Notes under the pieces: generated by a model
What the model was told of the DNA's origin: nothing
Databases searched by the model: none
The model's input: only the letters and a program-made list of their open reading frames with translations
Position numbers and translations under genes: made by a program
Virus record (IMG/VR): IMGVR_UViG_3300021437_000035
Span: 1-43,303 of that record
Reading direction: 5' to 3' (one strand)
Source of the DNA: a virus
Length of the DNA: 43,303 nt
Part shown: positions 6,530-30,854 of the stretch, piece by piece
How the letters are laid out: every line of letters begins with the position of its first letter
Position numbering within the stretch: position 1 is the stretch's first letter

Positions 6530-7504
6530 ATGGCGAACCGCCTCGTACGAAACGCCGCCATCCTCGCCAAGATCGAGACCACCTACGGCGTGGACGCCGT
6601 GCCCACCGGTGGCGCGAACGCGATCCTGGTGCGCAACCAGCAGCCCACCCCGCTCGAGAACAACCTCGTCGATCGTGCCGTCGTGCGCGCCTACCTTGGT
6701 GGCAGCGAGCAGCTGACCGGCACGCGCTTCAAGCGCCTGCAGTTCGAGGTCGACCTGGTCGGCTCCGGCACCGCCGGCACCGCTCCCGCATGGGGGCCAC
6801 TGGTGCGCATGGCCGGGATGGCCGAGACGATCATCGCCGCCACGCGCGTCGACTACCTGCCGATCAGCAGCTTGTTCGAGGCCGGCACGATCTACTACCA
6901 CGACGACGGCGTGCTGCACAAGCTGCTCGGCGCTCGCGGCAACGTGGTGCTGAACCTCAAGCAGGGCGAGCTGCCCAATCTCGGGTTCAACTTCGTCGGC
7001 ATCGACGGCGGCGACACCGCGACGGCCAACCCCAGCGTCTCGTATACCAACTTCCGCACGCCGCAGATCCCGGTCGACGCGAACACCGGCGATGTCACCT
7101 TCGGCGGTACCGTCAGCCCGACCGGCGCGCCGGCCATCACCGGTGGCACCGCGTACCCGAGCATGGGCATCGAGGGCCTGGACCTCGGCCACGCCGTCAA
7201 CTTCCAGCCTCTGCTGGGCGGCGAGTCGGTGGAGATCACCGACCGCCAGAGCGTCTGCAAGCTCGTGCTCGACCTCACCGCCGCGCAGGAAGTCTCCTTC
7301 GCTGCCAACGTGCGCGGCGCCACGCTGCAGAGCGTCGCCATGCAGCACGGCACCGTGGCGGGCGACCGCGTGCTCGTCTTCATGCCGGCCGTGCAGCTGG
7401 TGAACTGGACGAAGGGCGAGCTCAACGGCAAGCGCCTCGTCAACTACGACGGGCGGGTGCTGCCGCTGGCCGGCAACGACGACGTTCGCCTCGTCGTGTA
7501 CTGA
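6530..7504 (+). CDS. Major tail tube protein
   Basis: Forms the stacked rings of the tail tube. The 324-residue product starts MANRLVRNAAILAKIET, the usual opening of this tail-tube family, and is beta-rich throughout (QFEVDLVGSGTAG, ILVRNQQPTP, GNVVLNLKQGELP). A Gly/Thr/Pro-rich region near 190-215 (GTVSPTGAPAITGG) may be a surface loop. It lies between the tail terminator and a gpZ-like protein, upstream of the tail chaperone frameshift pair, which is consistent with a non-contractile tail. No sheath gene is present. Confidence 0.8.
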   Translation: MANRLVRNAAILAKIETTYGVDAVPTGGANAILVRNQQPTPLENNLVDRAVVRAYLGGSEQLTGTRFKRLQFEVDLVGSGTAGTAPAWGPLVRMAGMAETIIAATRVDYLPISSLFEAGTIYYHDDGVLHKLLGARGNVVLNLKQGELPNLGFNFVGIDGGDTATANPSVSYTNFRTPQIPVDANTGDVTFGGTVSPTGAPAITGGTAYPSMGIEGLDLGHAVNFQPLLGGESVEITDRQSVCKLVLDLTAAQEVSFAANVRGATLQSVAMQHGTVAGDRVLVFMPAVQLVNWTKGELNGKRLVNYDGRVLPLAGNDDVRLVVY

Positions 7505-7516
7505 GGCCGTGGCGCC

Positions 7517-8380
7517 GTGTACAGCATCGAGGTGCAGGGCCTCTCGGCGGTAAGGCAGCGCATCCGCGACGTGCCGCGCCAGTTCCGGTTCGCCGGCGCC
7601 GGCGCGCTCAACGAGGTGGCCTTCATCGCCGCGCGCCGGGCGGTGCCGGCCGAGATGGCCCAGGTCTTCGACCGGCCGAAGCCGTACATCCTGCGCTCGC
7701 CGTGGTACACGCAGGCCCGCCCCGACCGGCTGGTGGCCGCGTTGGGCGTCAGCAAGCACGGCGGCCCGGGCTATGCCCCGGAGCAGCTCACGCCAGGTGT
7801 GGTCAAGGGTGGCAAGGGCAACGACCCGGCCGACACGCTGCGCGCCGAGGTGTTCGGCGGTCCGCGCGCGCTCAAGAAGTCCGAGCGCCTGTTCCAACGC
7901 GCTGGCGTGCTGCCGGCCGGCTACGCCATGGTGCCTGCCAAGTGGCTCATCGACAGCGTGGCGGGTGATGGCTACGGCGGCATCAAGGCATCATTCATCG
8001 TGCGCCTGCTGAGCTACCTGCAGGCGTTCGGCGAGCAGGGGTTCAAGGCCAACATGAAGGCCAAGGGCATCCGCCGGCTAGCCAGGTTCGGCAAGACCGA
8101 CAGCGGCTTCAAGCGCATCGGCGGCGTGCAGTACTTCGTCAGCTACGGCCGGCTGCGCTCGCTGAACGCCGACAGCGACGCGTTGCAACACCTGAAGCCC
8201 GGCATCTGGCAGCGAAGCGGCACGCACGGGTCCGACGTGAAGCCTGTGTTCCTCTTCACCAAGGTCCCGAGCTACGCCAAGCGCCTGCGGTTGGGCGAGG
8301 TCATCTCCCGTGCGGTGCAGGAGAACCTGCCGCGCGCCTTCGATCAACGACTGCGGCGGGCGCTCGCCTCTGCCCGCTGA
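7517..8380 (+). CDS. Minor tail protein Z-like
   Basis: A 287-residue product resembling prophage minor tail protein Z, a tail completion or connector protein. The N terminus (MYSIEVQGLSAVRQRI, then ALNEVAFIARRA-like) has the helical pattern of that family, followed by the basic, aromatic segment RPKPYILRSPWYTQARP. The GTG start at 7517 is 12 bp after the tail-tube stop. Gene order differs from lambda, where Z precedes U, so the assignment depends on sequence pattern. Confidence 0.6.
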   Translation: MYSIEVQGLSAVRQRIRDVPRQFRFAGAGALNEVAFIAARRAVPAEMAQVFDRPKPYILRSPWYTQARPDRLVAALGVSKHGGPGYAPEQLTPGVVKGGKGNDPADTLRAEVFGGPRALKKSERLFQRAGVLPAGYAMVPAKWLIDSVAGDGYGGIKASFIVRLLSYLQAFGEQGFKANMKAKGIRRLARFGKTDSGFKRIGGVQYFVSYGRLRSLNADSDALQHLKPGIWQRSGTHGSDVKPVFLFTKVPSYAKRLRLGEVISRAVQENLPRAFDQRLRRALASAR

Positions 8381-25760: not shown

Positions 25761-27053
25761 ATGCAATTCGACGCTCGCGCCGCCAAGCTGCTGCAGCCAG
25801 GCGCGCATTTAACCATCCCCGGCTGCCCGGGCCTGCGCCTCGAGGCGTCGGCGCAGCGTCGGGCATGGACCTACCGGTACAAGAGCCCCGTCGACGGCCG
25901 CATGCGGCAGATCCGGCTGGGTCTGTGGCCCGCGATGAGCCTGCCGTCCGCGGCGGCCGAGTGGGAGCGCCTGCGCGGGCTGCGCGACGCTGGCCAGGAT
26001 CCGGCCGTCGATCGCCGGCGGCGTCGAGCCGAGGAGGCCGTGGCCGCACGCCTGGAGCTCGATCGCCGGCGTGGCCAGGCCTACACCGTTGCACGCGTAT
26101 GCACGGACTACCTGACGGGGCACGTGCGACGCCATCGCAAGGCCAAGGGCGCCGCCGAGGTCGAGCGGATGTTCGACACGATGCTCGGCAACACGCGCGA
26201 CCTGGTCGCCGCCTCGCTGACGCGGGCGCAGGCCTTCGGGCAGCTCGAGGTGCACCTCGACATCCCCGTCCAGTGCGCCAAGCTGCGCGCCGAGCTTGGC
26301 GCGGCCTGGGACTATGCCCTCGACGCCGGCCGGCTGCCCGAGAACACGCCGAACTGGTGGCGGCAGATCATGCGCGGCCGCCTGCGGTCGACCGGAAAGC
26401 GCATCGGCGGCAAGCCGGTCGGCGCCACCAAGCGGGTATTGACCGAGGCCGAGACGGGCCAGCTGGTGCGCTGGCTGCCGAACTTCAGCCGCACGGTGGC
26501 CGACGTGCTGACGCTCTACCTGTGGACGCTGGCCAGGGGCTCGGAGATCGTGGCGATGGACAAGCGCGAGATCTCGGAGGAGGAGGACGGCCTGTGGTGG
26601 ACGGTGCCCAAGGCGAAGACGAAGAACGCCAAGCGGGCGACCGCCACCGATCTGCGCGTGCCGTTGATCGGCCGCGCGGAGCTGGTGGTGCGACGGCGGC
26701 TCGAGCTCGTCGACCGCGGGCCGCTCTTCCCGTCAGGCGGAAAGGTGGGCCACCTCGAGCAGAAGGCGGTGCAGACGGCCGTGCACTGGCATCAGCCCTA
26801 CAGCCGGACGCGGCGCGACCAGGTGCGACCGCGGCTGCCGGTGACGCATTGGGCGCCGCACGACCTGCGGCGCACCGGGCGTACCGCGCTGGCGGCGCTT
26901 GGATGCCCTGACGACGTCGCCGAGGCCGTTCTGGGGCACGTGCAGCCTGGCGTGAAGGGCGTCTACAACCTCCATAGCTATGACCCGCAGCGGCGAGAGT
27001 GGCTCGCTCGGCTGTCCAAGCGCCTCGAGGATCTAAGCGTGCTCGTGCTGTAG
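25761..27053 (+). CDS. int: Phage integrase, P4-type tyrosine recombinase
   Basis: Catalyses integration and excision of the prophage. 430 residues with a DUF4102-like N-terminal arm-binding domain ([29 protein letters not shown], about 20-62), a core-binding domain (about 105-205) and a C-terminal catalytic domain with Arg259 (LARGSEI), a Lys near 286, His367-Arg370 (HDLRRTGRT), His393 (LGHV) and nucleophile Tyr402 (VYNLHSY). ATG 25761 is chosen because the longer in-frame start would put the attP-like repeats in coding sequence. The 3' end overlaps intI by 21 bp in convergent orientation. Confidence 0.9.
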
Positions 27054-28034
27054 CTCGACAGCGAGGTCGGGAAGTTGGTCCAACGGGCTGCGCACCCCGT
27101 TTCCGGCCAGGCCGAGCACATGGGTGTAGATCATCGTGGTCGACACGTCCGAGTGGCCGAGCAGCTCCTGGACTGACCGGATGTCATAGCCCTGCTGCAG
27201 CAGGTGTGTCGCGAACGAGTGTCGCAGCGTGTGCGGCGTGGCAGGCTTGCGGATGCCGGCGCATTTGACGGCGCGTGCCATCGTGCGCTGCACGGTCTGG
27301 TCATAGAGATGATGCCGGCGCTCGACGCCGCTGACGGGATCGGTGCTGTAGTGGTCGGAGGCGAAGACCCATTGCCAGCCGAGCTGCCGAGCCGCCTGGG
27401 GGTACTTGCGGTGCAGCGCGTGCGGGAGCTCGACGTCGGCGCGGTTGCGCTGCAGGTCGAGAACGTGCCAGGCCTCGCGCTGCGCCAGCTGCTCGGCGAG
27501 TGCGGCCCGCAGTCGCTGGGGGACGGGCACGCTGCGGTCCTTGTTGCCCTTGCCCTCACGGACGGTGATGCACATGGCCTCGAGGTCCAGGTCCTTGACA
27601 CGCAGCCGCAGGCCTTCGGTGAGCCGCATGCCGGTGCCGTACAGCAACTTCAGCATCAGGCCGTGCACACCGATCAGGTGCGGCCACAAGCGGGCAATCT
27701 CCTGCTGCGTCAGGACGCAGGGCAGGCGCTGAGGCTGCTTGGCGCGCGCGATGTCGTCCACCCAGCCGATCTCGCGCTCGAGCACCTTCTGGTACAGGAA
27801 GAGGAGCGAGGCCAGTGCCTGGCGCTGCGTGCTCGCCGAGACCTTGCGATCGGTAGCTAGGTGCGAAAGGAACGCGCCCACCTCCTGCTTGCCCATCTCC
27901 GCCGGGTGCCGCTTGCCGGACCACAGGATGAAGGCGCGGATCCAGTGCCAGTACGCCTCCTCGGTCCGGCGGCTGTAGTGCAGCGTGCGGATCGTGGTGA
28001 TGAACTGGGCTTGGAGGCGTGGCGCTTCTGGCAT
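27033..28034 (-). CDS. intI: Integron integrase IntI
   Basis: Tyrosine recombinase that joins folded single-stranded attC hairpins to attI. 333 residues (IntI1 has 337), similar along the whole length to the integron family: [11 protein letters not shown] with Arg137, GKGNKDR with Lys162, [14 protein letters not shown] with His268 and Arg271, [14 protein letters not shown] with His294 and nucleophile Tyr303. Crucially it has the IntI-specific insertion at about 205-236 ([19 protein letters not shown] and STDPVSG), absent from phage and Xer recombinases and needed to hold attC extrahelical bases. The ATG is only 18 bp from the cassette boundary, leaving no space for its own promoter or a LexA box, so read-through expression is likely. 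Confidence 0.95.
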
Positions 28035-28089
28035 AGTGAGGCCTCGGACGTGTTATGCGTCAGGGGGTGAGGTCGAATTGGAGTTATGC
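28035..28089 (+). other. attI-like region with two GTTATGC cores
   Basis: GTTATGC occurs at 28052-28058 and 28083-28089, direct repeats 31 bp apart, immediately upstream of the intI start. Either could be the crossover core that joins cassette 1, whose R'' is the exact complement GCATAAC (28649-28655). The other may be an integrase-binding direct repeat as in attI1. The first core overlaps the TAA of the cassette 1 ORF. Confidence 0.6.
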
Positions 28090-28652
28090 GCCTTGCAGCG
28101 CTGGGCCAGCAGCACAAGCCATCGGGCAAATGCTTCTGGCGTGTGCTCGTATTCGTGCTTCGCAATGCTGGGGCGGCACGTTGCCCTGTCTCGGCCGCTC
28201 CACAGGCCCACGGTGTGCGTTGCGTCGCCCAGCACCATCGGCATGTCGGGTATCTCACGCGGTTCGCAGCCAACCACGTACAGGCGGGTCTTCTTCTGCG
28301 CTCGGTGCCCCCACCAGTGTTGTTGCACGTAGAGCGTCCAGCCGCCGTACTGGTCGCGCTCTTGCCCTTCTGGCATTTGTTGCGCCTTCCATAGCGTCGT
28401 GAACTGCGGGTGCTCAAGCACGCCGCCGAACTCTCGCACCAGCGCCACAGCCAACCGCGCCAAGTTGCGTTCATCGGCTCGAGGTTTCGCGCCGTGGCGC
28501 AGGCTCGCCCAGCTTCTGCACGGCGGGTGCGCTACCACCGGGTGCGGCCCGTCATAGGTGCGCGCGTCGCGTTCCATGTCGTACACCTCCACGCCAGGCA
28601 GCGTCTTGTAAACACTGTCTGCCCGCGCAAACAGTACGGCCACGGGGCGCAT
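28053..28652 (-). CDS. Cassette 1: conserved phage protein with HPPCRxW motif
   Basis: 199 residues, MRPVAVLFARADSVYKTLPG followed by VAHPPCRSWASLRHGAKP and GGVLEHPQ, then a C-terminal half with QHWWGHRA and RLYVVGC. The Pro-Cys in HPPCRSW resembles the catalytic loop of cytosine methyltransferases, but no SAM-binding motif is evident; similar proteins are seen in other phages without known function. The ATG lies inside R'' of attC1 and the stop inside the attI-side core, so the ORF fills the whole cassette, antisense to attC polarity. An extension to 28727 would run through attC1 and is not preferred. Confidence 0.75.
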   Translation of the reverse strand: MRPVAVLFARADSVYKTLPGVEVYDMERDARTYDGPHPVVAHPPCRSWASLRHGAKPRADERNLARLAVALVREFGGVLEHPQFTTLWKAQQMPEGQERDQYGGWTLYVQQHWWGHRAQKKTRLYVVGCEPREIPDMPMVLGDATHTVGLWSGRDRATCRPSIAKHEYEHTPEAFARWLVLLAQRCKAHNSNSTSPPDA

Positions 28653-28752
28653 AACTGGTCGCTCGAGCAGACCATGCCCGGCGGGCGAGGCCTGCTCGTT
28701 TGTCGTTTCGATGGTTGCGCCGGTCATGGCTCGCTCAGCTCAAACGTTAGGC
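28649..28752 (+). other. attC1 (104 bp)
   Basis: R'' GCATAAC (28649-28655) and R' GTTAGGC (28746-28752). Inner arms pair: GCTCGAGCAGACCATG on the left with CATGGCTCGCTCAGC on the right. Compared with the reverse-complemented right arm, the left arm carries an extra C and an extra A, the two extrahelical bases that give attC its polarity. This orients the site rightwards. The long centre (about 40 bp) gives the variable loop. Confidence 0.85.
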
Positions 28753-28937
28753 CCCAACCCAATCGGGCAGGGGTTCACGGGGCAGGTGTCGCAGTAGCGG
28801 TGCGGTGCGGCGTGCGGGCAGTCCTGCAGCGCCTCCACGGTCTTCTGCGCCCGCAGCGTGGCAAGGTGCATCACCAGCGCCTTGCGTTCCTCGGGCGTCA
28901 GGTTGTGCTCTGCAAATAGTTCGTCAAACGTCGTCAT
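28740..28937 (-). CDS. Cassette 2, second ORF: small cysteine-rich protein
   Basis: 65 residues: a helical N terminus MTTFDELFAEHNLTPEERK and a C-terminal CPHAAPHRYCDTCPVNPC that could bind a metal. The start overlaps the stop of the upstream ORF (ATGA at 28934). The last residues and the TGA (28740-28742) are encoded inside attC1, so the cassette uses the neighbour's attC to end its gene. Longer upstream extensions lie antisense to nothing plausible and are rejected. Confidence 0.65.
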   Translation of the reverse strand: MTTFDELFAEHNLTPEERKALVMHLATLRAQKTVEALQDCPHAAPHRYCDTCPVNPCPIGLGPNV

Positions 28938-29140
28938 TGAATGCCCCTGTGCACGTACACGGCAACACCCGTGTCCGGGTCTTTGTAGTCGATCGTCGGC
29001 TCGCACCAGCAGTCCGCGCTGGCGTCGTGCTGGCGCGGCGCTTGGCAGGGCCGAACCGCGCACATGCCGCCGTCTTGCAGCGGGTAAAACGTCGCGTATT
29101 CGCCGTCGCATTCGTCGGCATATTCACAATGACAGGTCAT
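28934..29140 (-). CDS. Cassette 2, first ORF: small cysteine-rich protein
   Basis: 68 residues with several cysteines (MTCHCEYADECDGEY, CAVRPCQ, DCWCEP), probably a small metal-binding protein. ATG 29140 has GAGGAAA just upstream; an alternative ATG at 29182 lies inside attC2. The leader to R'' is only 25 bp, so transcription must enter from the right, across attC2. Function unknown. Confidence 0.65.
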   Translation of the reverse strand: MTCHCEYADECDGEYATFYPLQDGGMCAVRPCQAPRQHDASADCWCEPTIDYKDPDTGVAVYVHRGIQ

Positions 29141-29164
29141 GGTTTCCTCGCTTCGGATATAGGG

Positions 29165-29225
29165 GCCTAACCCTTCGATCAAGGCGGACGCCCCTACGGG
29201 TCGCCGCTTATCTCAAACGTTCGGC
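29165..29225 (+). other. attC2 (61 bp)
   Basis: R'' GCCTAAC (29165-29171) and R' GTTCGGC (29219-29225). The inner bases follow the aadA-type layout: TTCGATCAAG then GCGGACGCC on the R'' side, and CGCTTATCTCAAAC on the R' side. Relative to the right arm, the left arm has an extra C (GAT-C-AAG) and an extra A (CGG-A-CG), fixing polarity rightwards. Confidence 0.92.
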
Positions 29226-29226
29226 A

Positions 29227-29544
29227 TCAAGTTCCAACCTTGTCGGTCGTCCCCTTCCAAGTGAATTCGCCATCGGCGCCCACCGGGAAGTGCGCGCGGC
29301 AGACCGCGCAGAACGTGCCGCTGTAGAAGGCGGGCTCGCGGGCGTAGGTTTCGGCCAGCGCCAGGCCCATCGTCGTCACACCGCCGCACTTGTCGTGCAC
29401 GTAGGCGCTGCGCACGGGCCGCACAAAGCCCTTCGCGCGTTCCTCGGCGCTCAGGACCACGTAGCCCTTCTGCTGGCCGGTGGCGGGGTCAATCTCGCGG
29501 TGGTCAGGCGTCACCGGGGAGCCGTCCGTCAGTGTGGTGTTCAT
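29227..29544 (-). CDS. Cassette 3, second ORF: conserved phage zinc-binding protein
   Basis: 105 residues with YVHDKCGGVTTMGLALAETY and FYSGTFCAVCRAHFPV, then GADGEFTWKG and a terminal KVGT; the single Cys plus CxxC could form a metal site. Proteins of this pattern are familiar in other phages, function unknown. The TGA (29227-29229) is one base from R' of attC2. The start overlaps the stop of the preceding ORF by 4 bp. One copy of the 12-bp attP-like repeat (29341-29352) is inside this gene. Confidence 0.75.
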   Translation of the reverse strand: MNTTLTDGSPVTPDHREIDPATGQQKGYVVLSAEERAKGFVRPVRSAYVHDKCGGVTTMGLALAETYAREPAFYSGTFCAVCRAHFPVGADGEFTWKGTTDKVGT

Positions 29545-29756
29545 TGCTTCTCCGTCAGCTCGAAATTGAAGGCATCGCCCTCGATGTTGAACGCGCAGAC
29601 GAAACGCCCCGTCTCGTCCACCTCCTTGACCGGGATCGAAACCTTGCTCCCAAGCCGCCGCAGGAACGCGATCAGCAGTTGGTCCTTGAAGTCGTCTATC
29701 ACGTCCGCGTGCAACCCAGCGCCAGCGGCGCGAGCGGCATCAGTTCCCTTGCCCAT
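29541..29756 (-). CDS. Cassette 3, first ORF: small protein, function unknown
   Basis: 71 residues, MGKGTDAARAAGAGLHADV then DDFKDQLLIAFLRRLG and a beta half (KVSIPVKEVDETGRFVCAF). ATG 29756 has GAAAGGAC upstream. Its leader (29757-29792) is closely similar to the leader of the backbone gene at 30607-30810, including the GCCGAAC core, which links cassette 3 to the phage's own early operon. Confidence 0.65.
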   Translation of the reverse strand: MGKGTDAARAAGAGLHADVIDDFKDQLLIAFLRRLGSKVSIPVKEVDETGRFVCAFNIEGDAFNFELTEKQ

Positions 29757-29785
29757 CTCAGTCCTTTCACGTCCGGCGCGTTGAG

Positions 29786-29887
29786 GCCGAACCCCTCGCT
29801 CAACCGGACGCATTGCGGCGGCCGGCAGTTGCGCCCTACTCGGGCAGTTGTGGCGCCGCAATGCGCCGGTTAGCTCGAACGTTCTGC
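29786..29887 (+). other. attC3 (102 bp)
   Basis: R'' GCCGAAC (29786-29792) and R' GTTCTGC (29881-29887). Long inner arms pair almost perfectly: CGCATTGCGGCG on the left with CGCCGCAATGCG on the right. The left arm has the extra C (CGCT-C-AAC) and extra A (CCGG-A-CGC) typical of the R'' side. It is the last attC; no GCAGAAC partner for its R' is found further right, so phage backbone follows. Confidence 0.9.
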
Positions 29888-30081
29888 GTCACGCGATCTG
29901 CCGTCGAATTGCTTGCCCACGTCGGCGAGTGAATCGCTGCGCGGCACGCGCCGGTCAGCATGTCGATGGGTGGCTCCATCCAGTGCGTGTATGCCTCGTA
30001 GTGGCCCTGACGCCACTGGCACGACTGGCAAGCAGCGTGCGTTGTCCCTGAGCATCGAGCTACGTCAAGCGGCAAGTTCAT
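29836..30081 (-). CDS. Small cysteine-motif protein ending inside attC3
   Basis: 81 residues; MNLPLDVARCSGTTHAACQ then CQWRQGHYEAYTHWM suggests a small metal-binding protein of phage type. The C-terminal part after Asn-Val (about 16 residues) is encoded by attC3, so the original end was probably changed when cassettes joined here. ATG 30081 overlaps the upstream ORF by 17 bp. First backbone gene right of the integron. Confidence 0.6.
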   Translation of the reverse strand: MNLPLDVARCSGTTHAACQSCQWRQGHYEAYTHWMEPPIDMLTGACRAAIHSPTWASNSTADRVTQNVRANRRIAAPQLPE

Positions 30082-30220
30082 CGTCGTCCTCTTCGTCGGC
30101 AGAGTCGTCAAGATCGAACACCTCTCCGCAGGCCGCGCAGCGCTGCAGGCGGTCGTCTTCACCGTCGTCCTCATCATCGAACTGGTAGCAGACCTTGCAG
30201 CCACACTTGGGGCACGCCAT
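30065..30220 (-). CDS. Small zinc-ribbon protein
   Basis: 51 residues: MACPKCGCKVCYQF, then CAACGE, giving two CxxC knuckles of a zinc ribbon, with acidic stretches (DDEDDGEDD and SADEEDDDE). GAGGA lies upstream of ATG 30220. Such small ribbons often act as DNA mimics or polymerase-binding factors in phages; the role here is unknown. Confidence 0.7.
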   Translation of the reverse strand: MACPKCGCKVCYQFDDEDDGEDDRLQRCAACGEVFDLDDSADEEDDDELAA

Positions 30221-30268
30221 CACTGCTCCTCGCCTTGGGTCACCAGGAGGCGATCCGTTTGTGCGGCC

Positions 30269-30544
30269 TCACATGCGTGCCGGGTCACGGGCGCGCATGG
30301 GGCCATCGCGCGGGCCGCCGGTTTCCTTCGAGCCCACGGGCTGCTTCTTCGGCTCTGTCACCTCGAGCTGGAAGTCATCGAACGTCTGCGCCTCACAGGG
30401 CTTGCCGTCCTTGTCCAGCGCCTGCGGCTGCAGCGTCATGCGCCAGCACCCATTCAGCCACTCGGTGCGAGCCACGCACACGCCAGCAAAGCCACTGACG
30501 GTGTCGCGGGCCTTGTCGCCGAGCTGCACATTCACCCTCGCCAT
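30269..30544 (-). CDS. Conserved phage early protein, function unknown
   Basis: 91 residues with LGDKARDTVSGFAGVCVAR, WLNGCWRMTLQPQAL and FDDFQLEV, a small beta-barrel-like protein of a type common in early regions of phages, followed by a basic, Pro/Gly-rich tail (GGPRDGPMRARDPARM). Forms part of the leftward operon; 48 bp separate it from the zinc ribbon gene. No known activity. Confidence 0.7.
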   Translation of the reverse strand: MARVNVQLGDKARDTVSGFAGVCVARTEWLNGCWRMTLQPQALDKDGKPCEAQTFDDFQLEVTEPKKQPVGSKETGGPRDGPMRARDPARM

Positions 30545-30606
30545 CGCTTCTCTCCGGTAGTGCCCTGGTGGGCGGTTGATTCATCGGCCTCACTGTCGGC
30601 GTAGGT

Positions 30607-30810
30607 TCAGCGCAGCGCGCGGTTGCCCAGCACCAGATCGTGAACCCCCTTCAGCGCCCGCAGCGCCGCCTCGCGATCGCCCACGACCAGGTGGCTGTGG
30701 TGCGTGTTCACCAGCGTCGTGAGCTGGTGCTCGATGGTCGGGTAGGCCTCGGTGGTCTTGACCACGGGTGCCGTCTTGCGTGCACCCCGTTGAACCTTCT
30801 TCATCTCCAT
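30607..30810 (-). CDS. Small leftward-operon protein, function unknown
   Basis: 67 residues: basic N terminus MEMKKVQRGARKTAPVV, then a helical HQLTTLVNTHHSHLVVGDR and a C-terminal helix. The leader (30811-30839) carries GAAAGGAC and a GCCGAAC core and matches the leader of cassette 3. Function unknown. Confidence 0.55.
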   Translation of the reverse strand: MEMKKVQRGARKTAPVVKTTEAYPTIEHQLTTLVNTHHSHLVVGDREAALRALKGVHDLVLGNRALR

Positions 30811-30854
30811 CGTCCTTTCGCTTCGGCGCGAGGCCGAACGGGTTTCCCAGGCCG

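Follow-up and report, generated by a model that had tools for sequence, protein, structure and literature searches.

Organisation of the phage integron

The DNA analysed here, hereafter the window, is a stretch of 43,303 bases from an IMG/VR virus record which encodes terminase, head and tail genes together with a phage integrase (25611-27053). It is a temperate-phage contig carrying a true integron, with intI and three attC cassettes. The integron integrase gene adjoins that of the phage integrase and its product is an integron-type tyrosine recombinase; beyond it lie the cassettes, as follows.

27033-28034, minus strand: intI, the integron integrase (TIGR02249, 450.5 bits, cut-off 265), at the end of the leftward run of early genes
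28052-28058, plus strand: boundary core GTTATGC between attI and cassette 1, complementary to the R'' box GCATAAC of attC1, read from the sequence
28053-28727, minus strand: cassette 1 gene (phrog_12600, E 8e-69), with a weak match to a DNA methyltransferase family (phrog_757, E 3e-5)
28649-28752, plus strand: attC1 (model R1, E 2.7e-9)
28740-28940, minus strand: second gene of cassette 2, an ORF with 57% identity to an ORF of L012
28934-29140, minus strand: first gene of cassette 2, an ORF with the conserved cassette leader
29141-29171, minus strand: cassette 2 leader, GTTAGGCCCCTATATCCGAAGCGAGGAAACC, of the type found in L092
29165-29225, plus strand: attC2 (R1, E 3.9e-14)
29227-29544, minus strand: second gene of cassette 3 (3b), 95% amino acid identity in L013 and 63% in OM868079 and PP438432
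29541-29756, minus strand: first gene of cassette 3, 92% amino acid identity in L013
29757-29792, minus strand: cassette 3 leader, with R'' GTTCGGC followed by CTC...GCGCC...GAAAGGAC and the ATG at 29756, conserved in L013
29786-29887, plus strand: attC3, the last recognisable attC (R1, E 7.8e-14)

The attC sites were located with a covariance model, R1, built from 33 attC sites in related phage arrays, whose helices covary (covariation score 0.419 versus 0.135 when shuffled). With the filters off, R1 finds three strong sites in the window, with E-values from 2.7e-9 to 3.9e-14, and all three have conserved R and L boxes and an imperfect-palindrome fold; the fourth-ranked match has an E-value of 0.02 and lies far from the array. 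In all three window cassettes the R'' box and the opening R' of that cassette are complementary (GTTATGC/GCATAAC, GTTAGGC/GCCTAAC and GTTCGGC/GCCGAAC), as is characteristic of units exchanged by integrons, which makes a recombination box of the GCCGAAC in the cassette 3 leader. The same rule holds for 85% of 151 phage cassettes, against 15% after shuffling, which argues that the phage arrays have recombined as cassettes. Cassette 3 itself has a counterpart in the array of another phage (L013), with 87% identity over 29184-29847.

Some smaller features of the array may be recorded here. The reading frame of the second gene of cassette 2 ends inside attC1 (28740-28752) and an ORF that begins at 30082 extends across the R' box of attC3 (29836-30082). 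For the cassette 3b protein (29227-29544), two Synechococcus phages have relatives of 63% identity, and haloarchaeal tailed viruses have weaker ones.

Related phage integrons and the orientation of their cassettes

A set of related phages was assembled from relatives of IntI in IMG/VR (158 contigs, 80 of them kept), to which further loci were added by means of the first leader pattern and of bb2, one of the backbone genes described below. In a tree of IntI proteins the window enzyme falls inside a clade of 54 rows (support 100/93) that is phage-only within the present sample, since the genome rows were taken from the nearest 80 hits, and 13 other phage IntI are placed among chromosomal ones. 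The best IntI match from a bacterial genome, on a contig of a Rubrivivax MAG (L104, JAJTDE010000039.1), has the same match position as the virus contig L011; this is probably phage DNA that was binned with the host, which hints at a Rubrivivax-like host for the clade. One locus, L068 (9468-10836), is the sole IntI locus with attC sites on the other strand, downstream of intI.

Genes oriented toward attC and divergent from intI are typical of integrons, though not strictly defining, and the phage arrays depart from this arrangement. Judged by the longest ATG ORF, the gene runs opposite to attC in 103 phage cassettes and in the canonical direction in 11, versus 5 inverted and 111 canonical in a chromosomal control of bacterial-genome integrons found with the same query. 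Two codon models, one of them trained only on window genes of the opposite strand, agree on the inversion (114 to 2 and 109 to 2); orientation was judged from these and from the longest ATG ORF, the longest ORF with any start codon being unreliable in GC-rich DNA. Despite the inverted cassettes the system remains an integron, as a variant of the type. The cassettes and intI stand at the end of the leftward run of early genes, with which they would be transcribed jointly.

Among individual loci, the phage contig L091 (3052-13648) holds about 20 attC sites in 10 kb with mostly inverted cassettes, two of which have near-identical attC and leader and different ORFs. A bacterial contig, L113 (Gallionella MAG), possibly a prophage, has three cassettes that are inverted according to the codon model.

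Two leaders compared

A reading of the window from its sequence alone had remarked that the leader of the first cassette 3 gene (29757-29792) resembles that of a backbone gene, bb3, some distance beyond the last attC (30811-30839). Both leaders do carry, on the gene strand and in the same order, GTTCGGCCT, GCGCC and GAAAGGAC. The element GTCCTTTC occurs at 29761 and 30812, its only two copies in the window on either strand; AGGCCGAAC occurs at 29784 and 30831 and has four plus-strand copies in the 43 kb and none on the minus strand; GGCGCG lies between the two elements in both leaders. The next element, CCGAAGCGA, is common to the cassette 2 leader and the backbone leader.

When the leaders of 16 genes from the cassette and early region were compared, this pair gave the best score of all 120 pairs (34, against a mean of 11.6 and a standard deviation of 3.2, with the runner-up at 25), two of the 16 starts being placed a base or two off and the pair of interest being unaffected. 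Its similarity thus clearly exceeds that among ribosome-site leaders of the same operon. A score of 34 was reached by none of 20,000 dinucleotide shuffles (maximum 29), the pair still scores 25 with the ribosome site removed (p 0.0006), and a 40-mer scan of both window strands pairs each leader with the other as its best match. The GCCGAAC core that the sequence-only reading assigned to both leaders is indeed present in each, and the copy at 29786-29792 is more than a leader core, being the R'' box of attC3 (29786-29887).

A candidate CCGAA/TTCGG hairpin in the leader was dropped, because the motif CCGAAGCG is unchanged even where R'' reads GTTAGGC or GTTGGGC and the two sides accordingly do not covary. 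The predicted RNA fold of the backbone leader is unremarkable.

A common cassette leader in related phages

For a wider survey, the sequence following R'' on the gene strand was extracted at the related phage loci. Many cassettes begin with R'' GTTNGGC, a spacer, CCGAAGCG, a GA-rich ribosome site and an ATG, and encode unrelated proteins: the 44 proteins that lie behind CCGAAGCG leaders form 41 families. Of 229 phage cassette leaders, 24 carry the element exactly (shuffle mean 0.2) and 48, from 23 loci, carry it with at most one mismatch (shuffle mean 4.3), shares that are somewhat inflated because part of the set was fetched by the leader pattern. It is exact at 0 of 176 chromosomal attC sites (1 with one mismatch allowed) and in 4 of 769 other gene leaders on the same contigs (38 with one mismatch allowed). 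Of the 48 copies with at most one mismatch, 43 lie at a distance of 13-16 nt from R''.

A search of all IMG/VR with the leader pattern returned 51 loci. At 42 of them R1 finds an attC whose R'' is the GTTNGGC of the pattern, six are chance matches and three, each with a start codon, are leaders without an attC (L194, L215 and L223); leaving out the chance matches, 42 of 45 real leaders abut an attC. Another attC-less leader, with a broken core box, is present in L092, and those of L092 and L223 adjoin the last attC on its distal side. In L223 (600-1400) the attC-less leader has a promoter-like region in front of it, which gives the look of a distal cassette joined to a promoter of the phage.

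Backbone genes beyond the last attC

On the distal side of attC3 lie three backbone genes, bb1 to bb3, whose features are these.

30065-30220, minus strand: bb1, a zinc-ribbon gene and probable former cassette, with a relative of 62% amino acid identity in L018
30261-30267, plus strand: GTGCGGC, a putative degenerate cassette boundary, GTTCGGC in L053, where homology to the L053 cassette starts exactly
30269-30544, minus strand: bb2, a putative former cassette gene, with 86% DNA identity over 30261-30578 to a cassette of L053
30605-30611, plus strand: GTTCAGC, a candidate degenerate boundary core at the end of bb3, one mismatch from GTTCGGC and proposed from the complementarity rule
30607-30810, minus strand: bb3, a putative former cassette gene with a cassette leader, matching that of an L079 cassette at 40/44
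30811-30839, minus strand: bb3 leader, GTTCGGCCTCGCGCCGAAGCGAAAGGACG, with an exact CCGAAGCG at offset 13 from R''
30833-30839, plus strand: R'' half-site GCCGAAC without an attC (no R1 match at E<=10, filters off)

The L079 cassette whose leader agrees with that of bb3 at 40 of 44 positions has a different gene behind it and a real attC in front. A remnant of attC had been suggested as something to look for after 30833-30839, and with R1, filters off, nothing beyond the 7-base R'' box was found; the only R'/R'' pair after 30839 (30833/30912) has poor L boxes and a background-level score and was rejected as a remnant. bb3 accordingly lacks the attC of its own that a live cassette has and retains only the R'' box, together with a standard leader that has the exact motif at the right spacing from that box.

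For its neighbours the comparison is more direct. The L053 cassette related to bb2 is flanked by attC on both sides. Within the bb2 family, the members in L053, L101 and L102 are immediately preceded by an attC; in L097/L098 there is none. The L018 relative of bb1 (7504-7647) follows directly on a marginal attC (7426-7483, E 0.003). No relatives of the bb3 protein were found in viral contigs and phage records, for which reason bb3 itself has not been seen inside a cassette, and only for its neighbour bb2 is the gene seen as a live cassette in another phage. In the hope of an empty site, relatives of the adjoining backbone genes were sought, and none were found. Nor did any phage closely related to that of the window turn up with attC intact at the bb3 leader, so that attC loss is deduced from comparison. 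The bb2 protein tree has no supported forks and is too short to polarise gain against loss. A deletion at the GGCCGA microhomology between bb3 and bb2 was also considered; its junction cannot be demonstrated or fixed to the base.

A proposed cassette start module and probable retired cassettes

We hold it highly probable that both leaders are copies of one cassette start module, and that bb3, bb2 and probably bb1 are older cassettes fixed by loss of their attC; the likeness of the two leaders would come from a module that phage integrons of this kind have in common. It would run from the R'' end of attC through a short spacer and CCGAAGCG, or a variant of that motif, to a ribosome-binding site and the start codon. 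With the gene inverted relative to attC, each cassette would carry its own ribosome site, attC would come to lie at the 5' end of the gene, and the array and intI would run with the leftward early genes. Cassette 3, having kept its attC, would in principle be movable, while bb3, bb2 and probably bb1, at the far end of the array, would have lost theirs and so become fixed early genes, leaving half-sites at 30833, 30261 and perhaps 30605; degenerate core boxes would still mark the boundaries of these genes. Because an integron takes up new cassettes at attI, the distal ones are the oldest, which fits the retirement of old cassettes through attC loss. Fixation presumably is, or was, useful to the phage.

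The sequence-only reading had offered two accounts of the leader pair, a cassette formed locally from early phage DNA or a backbone relic half-site of a lost cassette, and it is the latter that agrees with our results. The bb3 leader has an R'' box and no attC, it is of the standard type that nearly always abuts an attC, and the relatives of its neighbours are cassettes in other phages, bb2 being 86% identical to a live one; that it is a relic of a lost cassette is therefore well supported. Local birth is at odds with the mobility of cassette 3, whose near identity to the cassette in L013 means that it was not formed in the window phage.

In its general form, cassette birth would make the leader an ordinary early-gene leader and have an early gene locally gain an attC beside its GTTCGGC. 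In favour of this are the attC and leader found on unrelated ORFs, and also the families of bb2 and cassette 3b: phages in which no integron was recognised have members of them among their resident early genes, those of Rhodobacter and others in the case of bb2 and those of Synechococcus in the case of 3b. In the stretches searched, however, no attC was found near resident relatives of cassette genes, those in Rhodobacter and other phages included; the exact motif is rare in the non-cassette leaders of the same contigs, and cassette 3 is nearly unchanged in another phage. Absence of the leader from the early genes of integron-free phages, which would also point against birth, was partly seen. 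We regard this account as improbable. We give equally little credence to the idea that only the leaders are homologous, the start module having spread by recombination to a bb3 that was never a cassette: although bb3 is without a known cassette relative, and attC and leader shared by non-homologous ORFs show that cassette parts can be exchanged, bb3 adjoins a gene with the marks of a former cassette and a recognisable boundary, and has GTTCAGC at its end, in the position that a cassette boundary should occupy. The remaining account, in which the two leaders in this GC-rich DNA converged on a strong ribosome-binding site and match in R'' by chance, has next to no likelihood. In its favour is GAAAGGA, a sequence of Shine-Dalgarno type. 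Against it, no shuffle attained the score of the pair, which is significant even without the ribosome site, and CCGAAGCG, itself no Shine-Dalgarno sequence, varies little in its distance from R''.

attC and leader on unrelated ORFs

Apart from the question of retirement, attC and leader are found together in front of unrelated ORFs. In 23 cassette pairs the attC and leader are shared (at least 80% identity over at least 70 nt) and the ORF is not, the best of them, L079_5230 and L090_1668, being 96% identical over 123 nt; within a single array, L091_8221 and L091_8519 agree at 95% over 126 nt and have unrelated ORFs. Conversely, attC and leader are dissimilar in 123 of 154 pairs with homologous ORFs. 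The two parts are therefore combined afresh at some rate, which may reflect the making of cassettes or may reflect later exchange between them. One gene family is seen as a resident phage gene, as a live cassette and as an attC-less former cassette, and there is some support for the derivation of cassette contents from phage early genes.

Relation to known integrons and implications

Sedentary chromosomal integrons have family-specific attC repeats, such as the Vibrio repeats, with near-identical attC on unrelated genes. The window group is like them in this last respect and unlike them in that its shared unit includes the ribosome site and start region, a consequence of having attC at the 5' end of the gene. 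Phage integrons and CALINs have been described by Qi et al. 2023 (PMC9892861), who surveyed 10,705 phages and reported three complete integrons, one In0 and 17 CALINs; several of the phage attC were recombined by IntI1, and TJE1 and PH101 have the usual cassette orientation. The window shares with those phages an integron integrase, attI and attC cassettes on a phage genome, and its group differs in having a phage-only IntI clade, inverted cassettes, a shared leader and probably retired cassettes. As in the integrons of Treponema (PMC3607928), intI and the cassette genes are transcribed in the same direction; in Treponema, however, intI is read toward attI and then the cassettes. In the window the order is reversed, with the cassettes read in the direction of attI and intI coming last, and, unlike those of Treponema, the genes of the cassettes point the opposite way to their attC. 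A search of the open-access literature turned up no account of phage cassettes that are inverted and share a leader.

A broader proposal, to which we would give even chances, is that a phage integron lineage has turned the cassette round, such that attC and leader serve as a portable start module for unrelated early genes and arrays as the swappable tail of an early operon, with cassettes that lose attC becoming permanent and new ones arising from a new ORF joined to an existing attC and leader. The presence of attC and leader on unrelated ORFs bears on the origin of cassettes, and the window and its relatives provide concrete junctions at which cassette formation and loss can be tested. For the phage, these arrays suggest a route by which captured genes become permanent early genes.
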